NCBI GenBank assembly: GCA_937870915.1
Contig: CALMZQ010000155.1
Location: forward strand, 37,018 to 101,017
Direction: 5' to 3'
DNA: 64,000 nt
From: an uncultured Ignavibacteria bacterium
Lineage (GTDB): Bacteria > Bacteroidota > Ignavibacteria > Kapaibacteriales > Kapaibacteriaceae
The first letter of the stretch is position 1. Each line of letters begins with the position of its first letter. Shown here one piece after another: positions 15,094 through 21,553 of the stretch. The position numbers and the translations under genes are program-made. The notes beneath the pieces were generated by a model. The model was not told the origin of the DNA, did not search any database, and was given only the letters and a program-made list of their open reading frames with translations.

Positions 15094-17547
15094 ATGTTTC
15101 GCTTCCATACTTTCATCTGCCTTTTCCTAGGTGCTATCACCGGTGCCTTTGGACAGACCCTTACGCCGGTTGAGGTAACGGTTAACACAACCCCTTCTCC
15201 TGGCTACATCTATATTGCTCCGAACAGCAGAGTTCCCACACCCCCATATGCCCCCTCCCTCATGGTTTTGGATCAGGCAGGGTCTGTTGTGGCATCACGG
15301 TTTATCCCGGAATACGCTTTTGATTTTCGGGTATTGCCGGATGGACGCCTAGGTTATTCTGTCTTCCAAGCAGCTGGTAGTGGTCCACGTGCTTCTTCAT
15401 CAATCTATATACTGGATTCCACGCTTGCTACCAAGGACTCGTTGAACGGTGGGAATGGCTATAATCTGGCCATGCATTCGTTTATGGTCCTCCCTAATGG
15501 CAATCGTCTGGTGATCATGCAGGAAGACGTAGTTGTTGACATGAGCAAGTTGGTTCCAGGCGGTCACCCCGCGGCTTCTGTTCAGCAGATGATCCTCCAA
15601 GAAGTCGACATCACAGGTCGAGTGATATTTCAATGGAGAGCGTTGGACCATTTTCCCGTGACTGTTACCTATGAGTCACTAACCGCGCCAGCTATACGCT
15701 ACTTCCACATGAATGCGGTTGATGTGGATACAGACGGAAACTTCTTAATCAGCGCTCGCCACTCTTCCTTTATCACGAAGGTGAATAGAACAACGGGAGA
15801 GGTGATGTGGGTGTTAGGAGGAAAACTAAACCAGTTTACCTTTACATCAGAGAATGGAATTGTTGATCCTCCAGAGTTTTCGTACCAGCATGATATTCGC
15901 AGGCTTCCTAACGGGAACATCTCTCTCTTTGATAATGGTTCACAGCGCACTCCACAGTGGTCACGTGGCGTTGAGTATCAACTTGATGAGGTGAACAAGA
16001 CCTGCAAACTTGTGTGGCAGTACCGTCACTCTCCTGACGTATATGCAGGTGTACAGGGCTCGATGCAGACACTCGCTGATGGACATCGTCTCTTGGCATG
16101 GGGCTCTGCATTTGCCGATGGTAAAACGTTGATCACCGAGGTAGATGAAAGTGGCACTGTTGTGTTTGAAGCAAAACTTCCAAACATGATGTATCCATAC
16201 AAGGCAGAGAAGAATGTGTATCCAACGGGTCGTTCGTCGGCCAGTGTATTGATTGACGAGATCTTGCCGACCAACACCTACACCTACACGCGAGGTGCAG
16301 ATACCGTTGGACTTACCGTTACATACCATACTCTGATATCGTTCTTCTATAACACCACCACAGCAACTCGTTATAGGTGGTCACCGGAGAATCCTTCCTT
16401 TGTAGCTCTGCGTGGTAATGAGATGGTTTCTACATTGCCACCTCTCCATGTGCAAGGATGCAGGCTCACCCTCACTCAAGAAGGTATGGTTGAACATGCC
16501 GGTGAGTTTAGATTCAATGTTGATCAAATTGGAATCACATCACCCGAACAGACTGTTGTCTACTATCGCGATTCCACCTATAAACCCTTCCGACAGCTTC
16601 GTACACGATTCAATCCAACTTCGCGCGAACTTGTTGTTGACACGGCTTCTGCCGGTGAGTTTTGTTTTGGATCCCCACTACCTGGACTCCCTCCGGATGT
16701 CCTCGCCCCGGCATTGATCGCTCCGATAGCGGGCAAATCCGTTTTGGTTGGTCGTGGTGTTCGTCTTCAAATTTCTCCTCAGGGAGCGTCGTCAAACTTC
16801 ACATATCATGTGGAGGGGGCTAATGGTGGACCCGTGGTTCATAACGCCACTCAAGCCTCTGACAAGGACACCACGATTGGTCTTGCTGCTGGTACGTATG
16901 TCTGGAAGGCATCTGCGCATTTATCTGCAGCCTCTGACACCGTTAATGCATCAAGTGAGTATTCGGCCATAGATTCATTTGTTGTAGAGAATGCCTTTGT
17001 CCAGATCATAGAACCAATGAACTCGGTTGTGTGGACACATGACAGTGCCTATGTGGTAACGTGGAACACGAATCTGGTTGGCCTGGCCAAGATCGAGTTG
17101 CTCAAAGATGATGCAGTGGTTGCACTCATTCGTGATAGCGTGAAGGCCTCATCTGGTGGATTCCTTTGGCGCGTTCCTGTGACCGTTCCTGAAGGAACGG
17201 GCTACGTTGTTCGAGTTCGCACACTTGATGGAGACATGACTGCTGCCACAGGCTCTACCGCAGCAATCGTAGAGATTCGAAAGATCATTACCAGTGTTGA
17301 AGAAGATGCATTTATTCTTGATGTGATGGTTGCGCCAAACCCAGCCTCATCTGAGCTATTCATAGGTGGATCACAAGAGTTGACGCGTGTTCAGCTTTTC
17401 ACTACCACCGGTGAAATGGTTCGTGATGTTGCACCTCGCGGAACAGGGGAGAGGTTGAATGTTTCCGATCTTGCAGTGGGGACGTACATGCTGCGTCTCA
17501 GTACACGGACAGGAATAGCCACTCGGATGGTTGCAATCACACGATAA
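15094..17547 (+). CDS. Secreted ASST-like protein with KNH-like domain and T9SS sorting domain (copy 2)
   Basis: The 817-residue protein has a signal peptide MFRFHTFICLFLGAITGAFG cleaved before Gln. Residues about 25-390 are the ASST-like propeller (NLAMHSFMVLPNGNR, MILQEVDITGRVIFQWRALDH, YFHMNAVDVDTDGNFLISAR, TGEVMWVLGGK, SYQHDIRRL, SLFDNG). A beta region and a segment resembling the Kre9/KNH Ser-Thr-rich family follow (VQIIEPMNSVVWTHDSAYVV, GGFLWRVPVTVPEG). The last 75 residues (VAPNPASSELFIGG to RMVAITR) are a clear T9SS type A sorting domain. The closest paralogue is copy 5 at 54360. A strong terminator follows. Confidence 0.9.
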   Translation: MFRFHTFICLFLGAITGAFGQTLTPVEVTVNTTPSPGYIYIAPNSRVPTPPYAPSLMVLDQAGSVVASRFIPEYAFDFRVLPDGRLGYSVFQAAGSGPRASSSIYILDSTLATKDSLNGGNGYNLAMHSFMVLPNGNRLVIMQEDVVVDMSKLVPGGHPAASVQQMILQEVDITGRVIFQWRALDHFPVTVTYESLTAPAIRYFHMNAVDVDTDGNFLISARHSSFITKVNRTTGEVMWVLGGKLNQFTFTSENGIVDPPEFSYQHDIRRLPNGNISLFDNGSQRTPQWSRGVEYQLDEVNKTCKLVWQYRHSPDVYAGVQGSMQTLADGHRLLAWGSAFADGKTLITEVDESGTVVFEAKLPNMMYPYKAEKNVYPTGRSSASVLIDEILPTNTYTYTRGADTVGLTVTYHTLISFFYNTTTATRYRWSPENPSFVALRGNEMVSTLPPLHVQGCRLTLTQEGMVEHAGEFRFNVDQIGITSPEQTVVYYRDSTYKPFRQLRTRFNPTSRELVVDTASAGEFCFGSPLPGLPPDVLAPALIAPIAGKSVLVGRGVRLQISPQGASSNFTYHVEGANGGPVVHNATQASDKDTTIGLAAGTYVWKASAHLSAASDTVNASSEYSAIDSFVVENAFVQIIEPMNSVVWTHDSAYVVTWNTNLVGLAKIELLKDDAVVALIRDSVKASSGGFLWRVPVTVPEGTGYVVRVRTLDGDMTAATGSTAAIVEIRKIITSVEEDAFILDVMVAPNPASSELFIGGSQELTRVQLFTTTGEMVRDVAPRGTGERLNVSDLAVGTYMLRLSTRTGIATRMVAITR

Positions 17548-17615: not shown

Positions 17616-19493
17616 CTACCGTAGATAGAGGGCAAGAATGGAAATGTCTGAAGCCGAAACGCCTGGTATTCGAGATGCTTGACCAAGCGATGTGGGACCA
17701 ATGCGTTTGAGCTTCTCCCTAGCCTCGGTTGAAAGGCTGTTCACCTTGTTATAGTCAAAACGTTCGGGGATATTCATGTTCTCTTGTTCTGCGAAGCGTT
17801 CAACATCTTTATAGAGTTTCTGAATGTACCCTTCGTATTTCACACCAGTTTCTGTGGCATGAACCACACGTGGGTGCTCTTCTCGAATTGATTGCGGCCA
17901 CGTTCCCGCTACATCGAGGAGGGGTGCTAGTCGAACTGCTGGCCGCTTGACAAGATTGAAAAGTGTGGTGGTCTCTGTTACTCCATCTTCGCCGCATGCC
18001 TGCAGAAATGGATTAGCTACATCAGGTGTGATCTTCGACGTCCTTACGTCGTTATCCAAAGACTCCCTAAGCTGGCTTTCTCGCTGATAGCGCTCATACG
18101 TGCGGTTGTAGATGAGCCCCATTTCATAGGCTTTTGGCATCAGTCTGTCATATACCGTATCGATACGGAGGAGAAGTCTGTATTCTGCTAGTGACGTGAA
18201 TACTCTGTAGGGCTCCTCGGTGTTCTTGTTGACAAGATCATCGATCATCACGCCGATATATGCCTCGGATCTTTGCAACGTAAATGAGCCTTCTCCTTTA
18301 ACGTAGAGGGAAGCATTGATGCCCGCGATCAAACCTTGGGCTGCAGCTTCCTCATATCCCGAAGTGCCATTTATCTGTCCGGCAAAGAAGAGCCCCTTTA
18401 TCGCCTTTGTTTCCAGTCCAAAAGTTAGTTGATAGGGGAAGAAGAAGTCGTATTCTACCGCATATCCGTAACGAAGGATCTCGGCGTTCTCTAGTCCAGC
18501 TATGCTCCGTAGTCCTGCCTCTTGGATATCAGCAGGGAGGCTTGTAGAGAATCCGTTCACATAGACTGTGTCCGTGGAGAGTCCTTCTGGCTCGAGCACA
18601 ATTACATGGGAGTTCTTTTCGGAAAAACGATAGATTTTGTCTTCGATTGAGGGACAGTATCGTGGACCAGCCCCGGTTATCAGCCCGGTAAACATTGGGG
18701 ACCGCGTAAATCCATCACGCATGAGATCGTGTGTTCTGGACGTTGTCTTTGTTGCGAAACACGCCAATTGGTTCCGTACGGCATGCGTATTGATCGAAAA
18801 GGGAACCGGTTGCTCATCTCCTAGATGTGGCTCAAGATCTCTGTAGTTGATCGAACGTTTGTCAATTCTAGGTGGCGTGCCAGTCTTAAGTCTACCCTTA
18901 GTAAGGCCATGGGCTGCCAGTAGGTCGGAAATCGTTTCTGCAGGGCGTTCGCCAACCCGACCTCCAGCCGTTGCTTCTGTTCCGGTCCACATCACTGCAT
19001 TGAGGAAGGTTCCTGAGCACAGAATTACGGCAGACGCAAGCAATTCTTGATTTGAGACAGTCCTTACACCGCGGATCCGGTCACCCTTGACGAGAATCTC
19101 GGTTACGGTCTCAGATATTAGCGTGAGATTAGGTCTTGATTGGACTGCGTGCTGGGCGAATAGGGGATAGAGATCTTTGTCGTTCTGTGAACGTGGGGAC
19201 CACACAGCCGGACCCTTGGAGGTGTTCAGCATCTTGAATTGTATCCCACTAGCGTCAGCAATTTGTGGCATTGAGCCACCTAAGGCATCAATTTCCTTGG
19301 CAAGGTGACCCTTTGCGCTACCCCCAATTGAAGGATTACACGATAGGCGACCTATCGTATTGATATCCATAGAGATTAGACCAACACTAAGTCCCATCTT
19401 AGAGGCAATTATTGAGGCTTCAATCCCAGCATGACCTCCCCCAATAACGAGGATGTCGAAATGATCGCTTTGAGAATGTTTCACGTGGAACAA
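17616..19493 (-). CDS. mnmG: tRNA uridine-5-carboxymethylaminomethyl modification enzyme MnmG (GidA)
   Basis: This 625-residue FAD enzyme works with MnmE to install the cmnm5 group on U34 of certain tRNAs. The Rossmann motif GGGHAG is at about residues 18-23, and the family signatures DINTIGRLSCNPSIGG, NTSKGPAVWSPRSQNDKDLY and GYEEAAAQGLIAGIN are all present. The start codon is TTG (19493): the first codons encode MFHVKH, the classic GidA opening, because a parS-like sequence overlaps them. Length and C-terminal region (RIPGVSASDISILALYL) are normal. It follows mnmE and a GNAT gene on the same strand. Confidence 0.97.
   Translation of the reverse strand: MFHVKHSQSDHFDILVIGGGHAGIEASIIASKMGLSVGLISMDINTIGRLSCNPSIGGSAKGHLAKEIDALGGSMPQIADASGIQFKMLNTSKGPAVWSPRSQNDKDLYPLFAQHAVQSRPNLTLISETVTEILVKGDRIRGVRTVSNQELLASAVILCSGTFLNAVMWTGTEATAGGRVGERPAETISDLLAAHGLTKGRLKTGTPPRIDKRSINYRDLEPHLGDEQPVPFSINTHAVRNQLACFATKTTSRTHDLMRDGFTRSPMFTGLITGAGPRYCPSIEDKIYRFSEKNSHVIVLEPEGLSTDTVYVNGFSTSLPADIQEAGLRSIAGLENAEILRYGYAVEYDFFFPYQLTFGLETKAIKGLFFAGQINGTSGYEEAAAQGLIAGINASLYVKGEGSFTLQRSEAYIGVMIDDLVNKNTEEPYRVFTSLAEYRLLLRIDTVYDRLMPKAYEMGLIYNRTYERYQRESQLRESLDNDVRTSKITPDVANPFLQACGEDGVTETTTLFNLVKRPAVRLAPLLDVAGTWPQSIREEHPRVVHATETGVKYEGYIQKLYKDVERFAEQENMNIPERFDYNKVNSLSTEAREKLKRIGPTSLGQASRIPGVSASDISILALYLR
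19477..19492. other. parS-like centromere site 1, inside the first codons of mnmG
   Basis: TGTTTCACGTGGAACA matches the bacterial parS palindrome (TGTTNCACGTGNAACA) with only one arm asymmetric. It lies over codons 1-6 of mnmG (minus strand). ParB nucleates on such sites for chromosome segregation, and they normally cluster near oriC. parA and parB are not in the window. Confidence 0.85.
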
Positions 19494-19536
19494 TTCGCAG
19501 AATGATTACGAGTAAATCGTGAAAAGTGTCAAGTGG

Positions 19537-19552
19537 TGTTCCACGTGGAACA
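19537..19552. other. parS-like centromere site 2, perfect palindrome
   Basis: TGTTCCACGTGGAACA is a perfect 16-bp palindrome of the parS type. It is centred exactly 60 bp from site 1 and ends at the base before the stop codon of the GNAT gene. Two such sites so close together are very unlikely by chance. Confidence 0.88.
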
Positions 19553-20102: not shown

Positions 20103-21470
20103 CTATTTACCAATGCAAAATCGCGAGAACACAGTGTCTAGGACATCCGGATTCCAAGATTCTCCGGTAATGTCACCCAAAAGGCGGATCGCTGAACGGA
20201 TGTCTACCGCCATAAGATCAGAGGAAAGTCCAGAGTCCAAACCCGCTAGAGCCGACCTGAGGTGACTTGCAATACTCCGCAAGAGTTGTGCCTGCCTCGC
20301 GTTGATAAGCACATCCGAAACCCCAGACGTGGTGCTTTTTACGTGATCCCCTAGAAGCAACCGAAGTTTGTCCAATCCTTGTCCCGTCACGGCCGAGCAG
20401 ACAACGGATCTAACAGGATACGGAGGAAGAGTAGCCTCAATAACATCAACTTTGTTCTGAACAGTTACTACGGGTGTGTTTGGGAACCGAGCCTCAATAT
20501 CACGAACCAAACCCATGGAATGGTCTCTGTTGATAGATAGATCGTTTACCACCAGGATCAGGTCACTCTCTTCGATCACAGACGTTGTCAGTCGAATTCC
20601 TTGAAGTTCAATTTGGTCTTCGGTTTCGCGCAACCCAGCCGTGTCCATGAGGTGAATGGAATAGCCCTCAATAAAAAGTGTTTCCGTGAGGTAGTCTCTG
20701 GTAGTTCCCGGAACGTCGCTCACGATAGCCCGTTCCCGACCCAGGAGGGCATTAAAAAGTGAGCTTTTGCCAGCATTAGGGTATCCGACCACCGCTACAT
20801 GAAGGCCTGAGCGAAGTACCTCGGCGCTATGTGCAGAGGCTGCTGTGGCGTCAACATCTTCAATGATTGACTGAAGCGTACTTCGAAGTGAGCTTCGGTC
20901 GACAAACTCAACATCCTCCTCTGAGAAGTCGAGTTCTAGCTCCAAAAGCCCAATCACATCAAGCAGGTGCTGACGGAGTCCGGCTATACGCCTCGTAAAG
21001 CCCCCTGAGAGCTGTCGGGCAGCCGTTTGTGCACCGATACGCGATTCTGCATGGATAATGTCTGCAACAGCCTCGGCTTGGGTAAGGTCAAGTTTTCGGT
21101 TCATGAAGGCTCGCTTGGTGAATTCGCCGGGTTGAGCAAGTCGCACACCAGCGTTGAGAAGAGAGCTCACGATCTGGTCCGTAACAAACGAGCCGCCATG
21201 ACAGCCGATCTCTACAACATGCTCACCCGTGTATGAGCGAGGAGCACGGAATATGGTAGCCGTTACAGAGTCAACCCGCGCGCCGTCAACAACCCACCAC
21301 CCGTAGTTTATTGTGTGGTCTACTTCTGAGGTCAGTTTCACTGATCCCGAGAAAAACTCATCACTTGCCAAAAAGGCATTTTGGCCGCTGATTCTGATCA
21401 CGGCCAGACCAGCAACTCCGGGAGGAGTAGCCAAGGCACAAATGGTGTCGGTAAGAATAGCTGAAGACAT
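20103..21470 (-). CDS. mnmE: tRNA modification GTPase MnmE (TrmE)
   Basis: The start is re-chosen at ATG 21470 (MSSAILTDTICALATPPGVAG), giving 455 residues, the same as E. coli MnmE. The N-terminal folate-binding domain shows GLAVIRISG and LNAGVRLAQPGEFTKRAF. The GTPase domain has G1 GYPNAGKSS (about 229-237), G3 DTAGLRETED and G4 NKVD. The C-terminal motif CIGK, with the catalytic-region Cys, ends the protein. It acts as the heterotetrameric partner of MnmG in tRNA wobble uridine modification. The ORF-track extension to 21536 is rejected as it lies past the conserved N-terminus. Confidence 0.97.
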   Translation of the reverse strand: MSSAILTDTICALATPPGVAGLAVIRISGQNAFLASDEFFSGSVKLTSEVDHTINYGWWVVDGARVDSVTATIFRAPRSYTGEHVVEIGCHGGSFVTDQIVSSLLNAGVRLAQPGEFTKRAFMNRKLDLTQAEAVADIIHAESRIGAQTAARQLSGGFTRRIAGLRQHLLDVIGLLELELDFSEEDVEFVDRSSLRSTLQSIIEDVDATAASAHSAEVLRSGLHVAVVGYPNAGKSSLFNALLGRERAIVSDVPGTTRDYLTETLFIEGYSIHLMDTAGLRETEDQIELQGIRLTTSVIEESDLILVVNDLSINRDHSMGLVRDIEARFPNTPVVTVQNKVDVIEATLPPYPVRSVVCSAVTGQGLDKLRLLLGDHVKSTTSGVSDVLINARQAQLLRSIASHLRSALAGLDSGLSSDLMAVDIRSAIRLLGDITGESWNPDVLDTVFSRFCIGK

Positions 21471-21553
21471 GAAGCAAAATATGCAGACGTTGTGGCTAAT
21501 TGGCGTGAATGTTGTGGTGAAAACATGCGAGGGCAACCGTTCACTTTGTAACG

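Follow-up and report, generated by a model that had tools for sequence, protein, structure and literature searches.

Two closely spaced 16-bp palindromes lie at the 5' end of mnmG in a 64,000-nucleotide stretch of DNA (the window; C155:37018-101017 of a draft genome of 3.32 Mb in 233 contigs), and the question that they raise is whether they are parS, the centromere sites of the chromosome, and whether they mark its replication origin. The source organism is a Kapaibacterium-type Bacteroidota, and the nearest relatives of its MnmG (76-77% identity) are found in Kapaibacterium/Ignavibacteria metagenome genomes. The features of the locus are:

17616..19493, minus strand: mnmG (gidA), 625 aa, TTG start (TIGR00136, 779 bits, residues 12-624; PF01134)
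19477..19492, no strand assigned: parS site 1, TGTTTCACGTGGAACA (TGTTCCACGTGAAACA on the mnmG strand), exact match, overlapping codons 1-6 of mnmG
19493..19536, no strand assigned: spacer between the parS sites, 44 bp, unconserved (pairwise identity 0.331)
19537..19552, no strand assigned: parS site 2, TGTTCCACGTGGAACA, perfect palindrome, exact match, directly adjacent to the GNAT stop codon
19553..20113, minus strand: GNAT-family N-acetyltransferase, between mnmE and mnmG (PF00583, E 8.9e-18)
20103..21536, minus strand: mnmE (trmE), GTPase (NF003661, 386 bits; TIGR00450, 362 bits)

The mnmE-GNAT-mnmG order and both parS sites are found in the same arrangement in the closest relative (L016). 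On its other side, mnmG adjoins a gene for an 817-aa protein (15094-17547) with a C-terminal stretch that resembles a type IX secretion sorting domain, and mnmG of L016 has this same neighbor. No tRNA genes and no Rfam family matches were found across the whole 64 kb (1-64000).

The parS consensus of chromosomal ParABS systems, as in Bacillus, Caulobacter, and Hyphomonas, is TGTTNCACGTGAAACA (PMC7022226). The initial annotation had placed two such sites 60 bp apart at mnmG; both were found there and both are exact parS matches, 60 bp apart from start to start with 44 bp in between. Site 1 covers the TTG start codon (19493-19491) except for its first base and extends into codon 6 of mnmG (minus strand), of which it includes the first base. 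Site 2 ends at 19552 and directly adjoins the TAG stop codon of the GNAT gene (19555-19553, minus strand), so that its placement next to this stop codon stands, with the correction that no base intervenes where the palindrome had been said to end one base before it. A scan of the window with up to two mismatches returned the two perfect matches and no others (0.26 expected). Across the whole draft genome, a search that the initial annotation had itself suggested, ∼0.003 exact copies of TGTTYCACGTGRAACA are expected and two were found, both at mnmG; exact matches to the 16-bp palindrome TGTTNCACGTGNAACA are thus confined to this pair and are not scattered. Two single-mismatch matches and the two-mismatch matches lie scattered over the genome at background level (25 vs. 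21 for a reversed-pattern control).

The conservation of the sites was assessed in an alignment of the GNAT-mnmG junction from eight sequences, the window and seven relatives. Pairwise identity is 0.926 for site 1 and 0.942 for site 2 but only 0.331 for the spacer, and 0.67 for the adjoining coding end. The sites are conserved as DNA independently of coding, as some relatives have the site within the mnmG reading frame and others have it outside. Within the order, 52 out of 61 genomes contain one to three exact copies of parS (58 out of 61 if one mismatch is allowed) and the reversed-pattern control has no match in any of the 61. Six of the nine genomes that lack an exact copy have one-mismatch sites; among the remaining three, two (G017 and G041) lack MnmG and one (G059) has an mnmG gene that is cut at a contig end and is missing its 5' end. 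The genome G041 is a single contig of 2.2 Mb in which neither mnmG nor parS was found, which suggests that the origin region is missing even though the assembly looks closed.

In the window's own family, a site is present at mnmG in each of the ten genomes in which the 5' end of this gene is intact. Several genomes of this family carry an upstream pair, with a distance of 57-60 bp in the cases where the two copies are both exact. In other families, mnmG is usually flanked by two sites, one immediately upstream and one immediately downstream, ∼1.9 kb apart. Overall, a comparison of positions by hand places parS within ∼2.5 kb of mnmG in 38 out of the 52 genomes with listed sites. In the other 14, which include all nine genomes of one family (f7), parS and mnmG are on different contigs, indicating that mnmG itself is not required and that what is kept is the DNA site. 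The parS pair in f7 (e.g., G048:C257, G043:C37, and G053:C16) is usually 1.7-2.1 kb apart and may flank another gene.

The overlap of site 1 with mnmG bears on the start of the protein, since the first six residues of MnmG (MFHVKH) are encoded by the site. The TIGR00136 match begins at residue 12, which places these six residues outside the conserved enzyme. Two relatives (L016 and L017) share the overlap between site and reading frame, with an ATG start and the N-termini MFHVKH and MFHVKQ, respectively. In other close relatives the site is located 19-155 bp upstream of the MnmG match and the N-terminus lacks MFHVKH. The codon choice for MFHV is CAC GTG throughout in five relatives, which is consistent with a by-product of the site although these are too few independent cases. 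The proposal that the MFHVKH start is a by-product of keeping the parS site is therefore supported, as far as the position of the motif and its absence from relatives with the site outside the reading frame can indicate.

A gene for an intact ParB is located beside parA on contig C221; no other ParB-family gene was found in the draft genome. The protein contains the ParB_N, HTH_ParB, and ParB_C domains and the nucleotide motif GERRLRA (GxxR), and it matches solved ParB/Spo0J structures with E-values of 1e-47 to 1e-53. The residues with which Caulobacter ParB reads parS are known, and among them R173 and G201 tell parS readers from Noc, which is of the Q173/R201 type (PMC7383237). A hand count without gaps showed that the ParB studied here matches the Caulobacter protein at Q162, G170, K171, R173, N178, G201, and R204, and that only S172 is changed (to D). 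A cognate ParB with R173, G201, and the GxxR motif is accordingly present together with ParA. The identification as parS is supported by the motif, its uniqueness, the intact ParA and ParB with the specificity residues, and the strong phylogenetic footprint; judged by this evidence, the pair at mnmG, as the initial annotation had read it, represents genuine, conserved parS sites and a standard component of a known system.

Other explanations for the palindromes were weighed against the same evidence. A degenerate 16-bp motif can arise randomly, and the two-mismatch sites in this genome are indeed scattered at background level, but two adjacent exact copies far exceed the expectation per genome and are conserved across an order in which the control finds none; the probability of chance similarity is negligible, and the footprint (0.93-0.94 for the sites vs. 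0.33 for the spacer) rules it out. The palindromes could instead be operators at which a transcription factor regulates mnmG or the mnmE-GNAT-mnmG operon. Their location at the 5' end of mnmG fits this idea, a palindrome in this position being characteristic of operators, and ParB complexes can also influence nearby genes (PMC7022226). The mnmG strand, however, has no promoter-like site, there are no further copies in the genome, and in relatives the pair persists even where one member lies ∼1.9 kb away, downstream of mnmG, or where, as in f7, the sites are off the mnmG contig altogether. With a sequence that is exactly the ParB site and a cognate ParB present, an operator function in place of a centromere function is very unlikely.

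Even less probable is control of mnmG translation by an RNA hairpin formed in the transcript by base pairing between the two sites. The transcript does fold better than shuffled sequences (z -3.5) with site 1 paired to site 2, but such pairing is expected of any two copies of one palindrome, no Rfam family matches, and the conservation holds in relatives that have just one site, three sites, or sites separated by 1.9 kb; the hairpin folds, yet is not conserved as a structure. Noc, the nucleoid occlusion protein, is a ParB paralogue that binds a related palindrome, and the core of the Noc site differs from the parS core. The Noc model TIGR04285 hits the ParB of this genome below its cut-off (238 vs. 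315 bits). The sites, however, contain the CACGTG core and not the core of Noc-binding sites, the protein has R173 and G201 and not Q173/R201, and no second ParB-family gene was found in the genome, which leaves Noc binding as improbable as the hairpin.

The two palindromes thus very probably constitute the complete consensus-matching set of chromosomal parS sites and, going by their sequence, would act as a centromere, loaded with ParB and moved by ParA, beside the origin gene mnmG. ParB dimers expressed from C221 would load on each of the two sites, form closed CTP-dependent clamps, and then slide into the flanking DNA. The resulting partition complex would be moved by ParA and would probably recruit SMC, so that freshly replicated origins are the first to separate. 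The sites may be located beside mnmG because this gene is found at the origin of replication in the group, and the site that overlaps mnmG would dictate the otherwise unneeded MFHVKH start.

The location of the origin was examined by GC skew in two single-contig relatives (G011 and G003), from sampled 20-kb stretches round the chromosome followed by contiguous stretches near parS. In G011 the minimum of the cumulative skew is 12 kb away from parS, and in G003 it is 17 kb away (probability 0.009 and 0.015, respectively, under uniform placement), so the origin-proximal reading is right in these two genomes and parS lies within the ori domain (20% around oriC). Contigs of three further relatives are compatible with an origin at parS: the skew is ∼0 to the left and positive for 130 kb to the right in G033, negative for 200 kb leftward and positive rightward in G006, and, weakly consistent with the same arrangement, weakly negative to the left in G001, where only a short part of the contig extends to the right. 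The skew of a 1.45-Mb contig (G051) is too noisy to show a switch. The window's own contig, part of the fragmented 233-contig assembly, has a skew of +0.004 to the left and +0.018 to the right of parS, which is no clean inversion and neither supports nor excludes an origin. The initial annotation had expected the window to be origin-proximal; this was borne out in G011 and G003 and, by extension from these relatives, the parS-mnmG locus would be origin-proximal in this genome as well. A search for DnaA-box clusters near mnmG gave no convincing candidate in the window's contig (101 kb, no exact TTATCCACA) and weak candidates at best in G011 and G003, so that oriC itself was not located.

The genes for the proteins that act at the origin are located elsewhere. 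As had been noted earlier, dnaA and parAB are absent from the window; in this genome dnaA is on C3, smc on C20, rsmG on C219, and parAB on C221, none of them on the contig that carries parS. In G011, dnaA is 153 kb (5% of the chromosome) and parB 1.34 Mb (47%) from parS, and in G003 dnaA lies 602 kb (27%) away and parB 709 kb (32%). The parAB operons are intact in both genomes (G011:C1:2816923 and G003:C1:831714; L137 and L165), and that of G011 is located near the skew maximum, on the terminus side. No parS-like site better than three mismatches was found near parAB or dnaA in the stretches checked. The rule that assigns parS and the par operons to the ori domain therefore holds in G011 and G003 for parS and fails for parAB, whose location near parS is a usual correlate of parS and not a defining feature. 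On balance, it seems that the order keeps parS at the origin beside mnmG while dnaA and parAB have moved off, with parAB in the terminus region of one genome.

The arrangement resembles known chromosomal ParABS systems in the 16-bp palindrome, the few copies in one cluster, the intact ParA and ParB with parS-reading residues, and the origin-proximal parS of the closed relatives. It differs from them in that the sites flank or overlap mnmG with no rsmG-parAB beside it, and in that parAB is not next to parS but on a different contig in this genome and, in G011 and G003, at a distance of 32-47% of the chromosome. The gene gidA (mnmG) is a recognized origin gene within the origin cluster gidA/gidB/parAB/dnaA (PMC2099444), and the locus shares this member with the cluster. 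Unlike in that cluster, dnaA and parAB of G011 and G003 have moved away from the skew minimum, where mnmG and parS have remained, and rsmG is on another contig in this genome as well. In gut bacteria, parS clusters mark ori where dnaA does not (PMC10197239). The origin is likewise indicated here by parS and skew and not by dnaA, but in this case parAB too is displaced.

If the displacement of parAB holds, ParB would be made far from its own centromere, against the stated rule of par operons in the ori domain. Only this uncoupling of parS from parAB, seen in related genomes, would come as a mild surprise to a specialist, and it documents that the two need not be linked. The N-terminal extension of MnmG, which is not part of the enzyme, may be explained as the trace of a DNA site, which aids start-codon annotation. 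For a largely uncultured order in which dnaA marks the origin poorly, parS would provide a precise and checkable origin marker.
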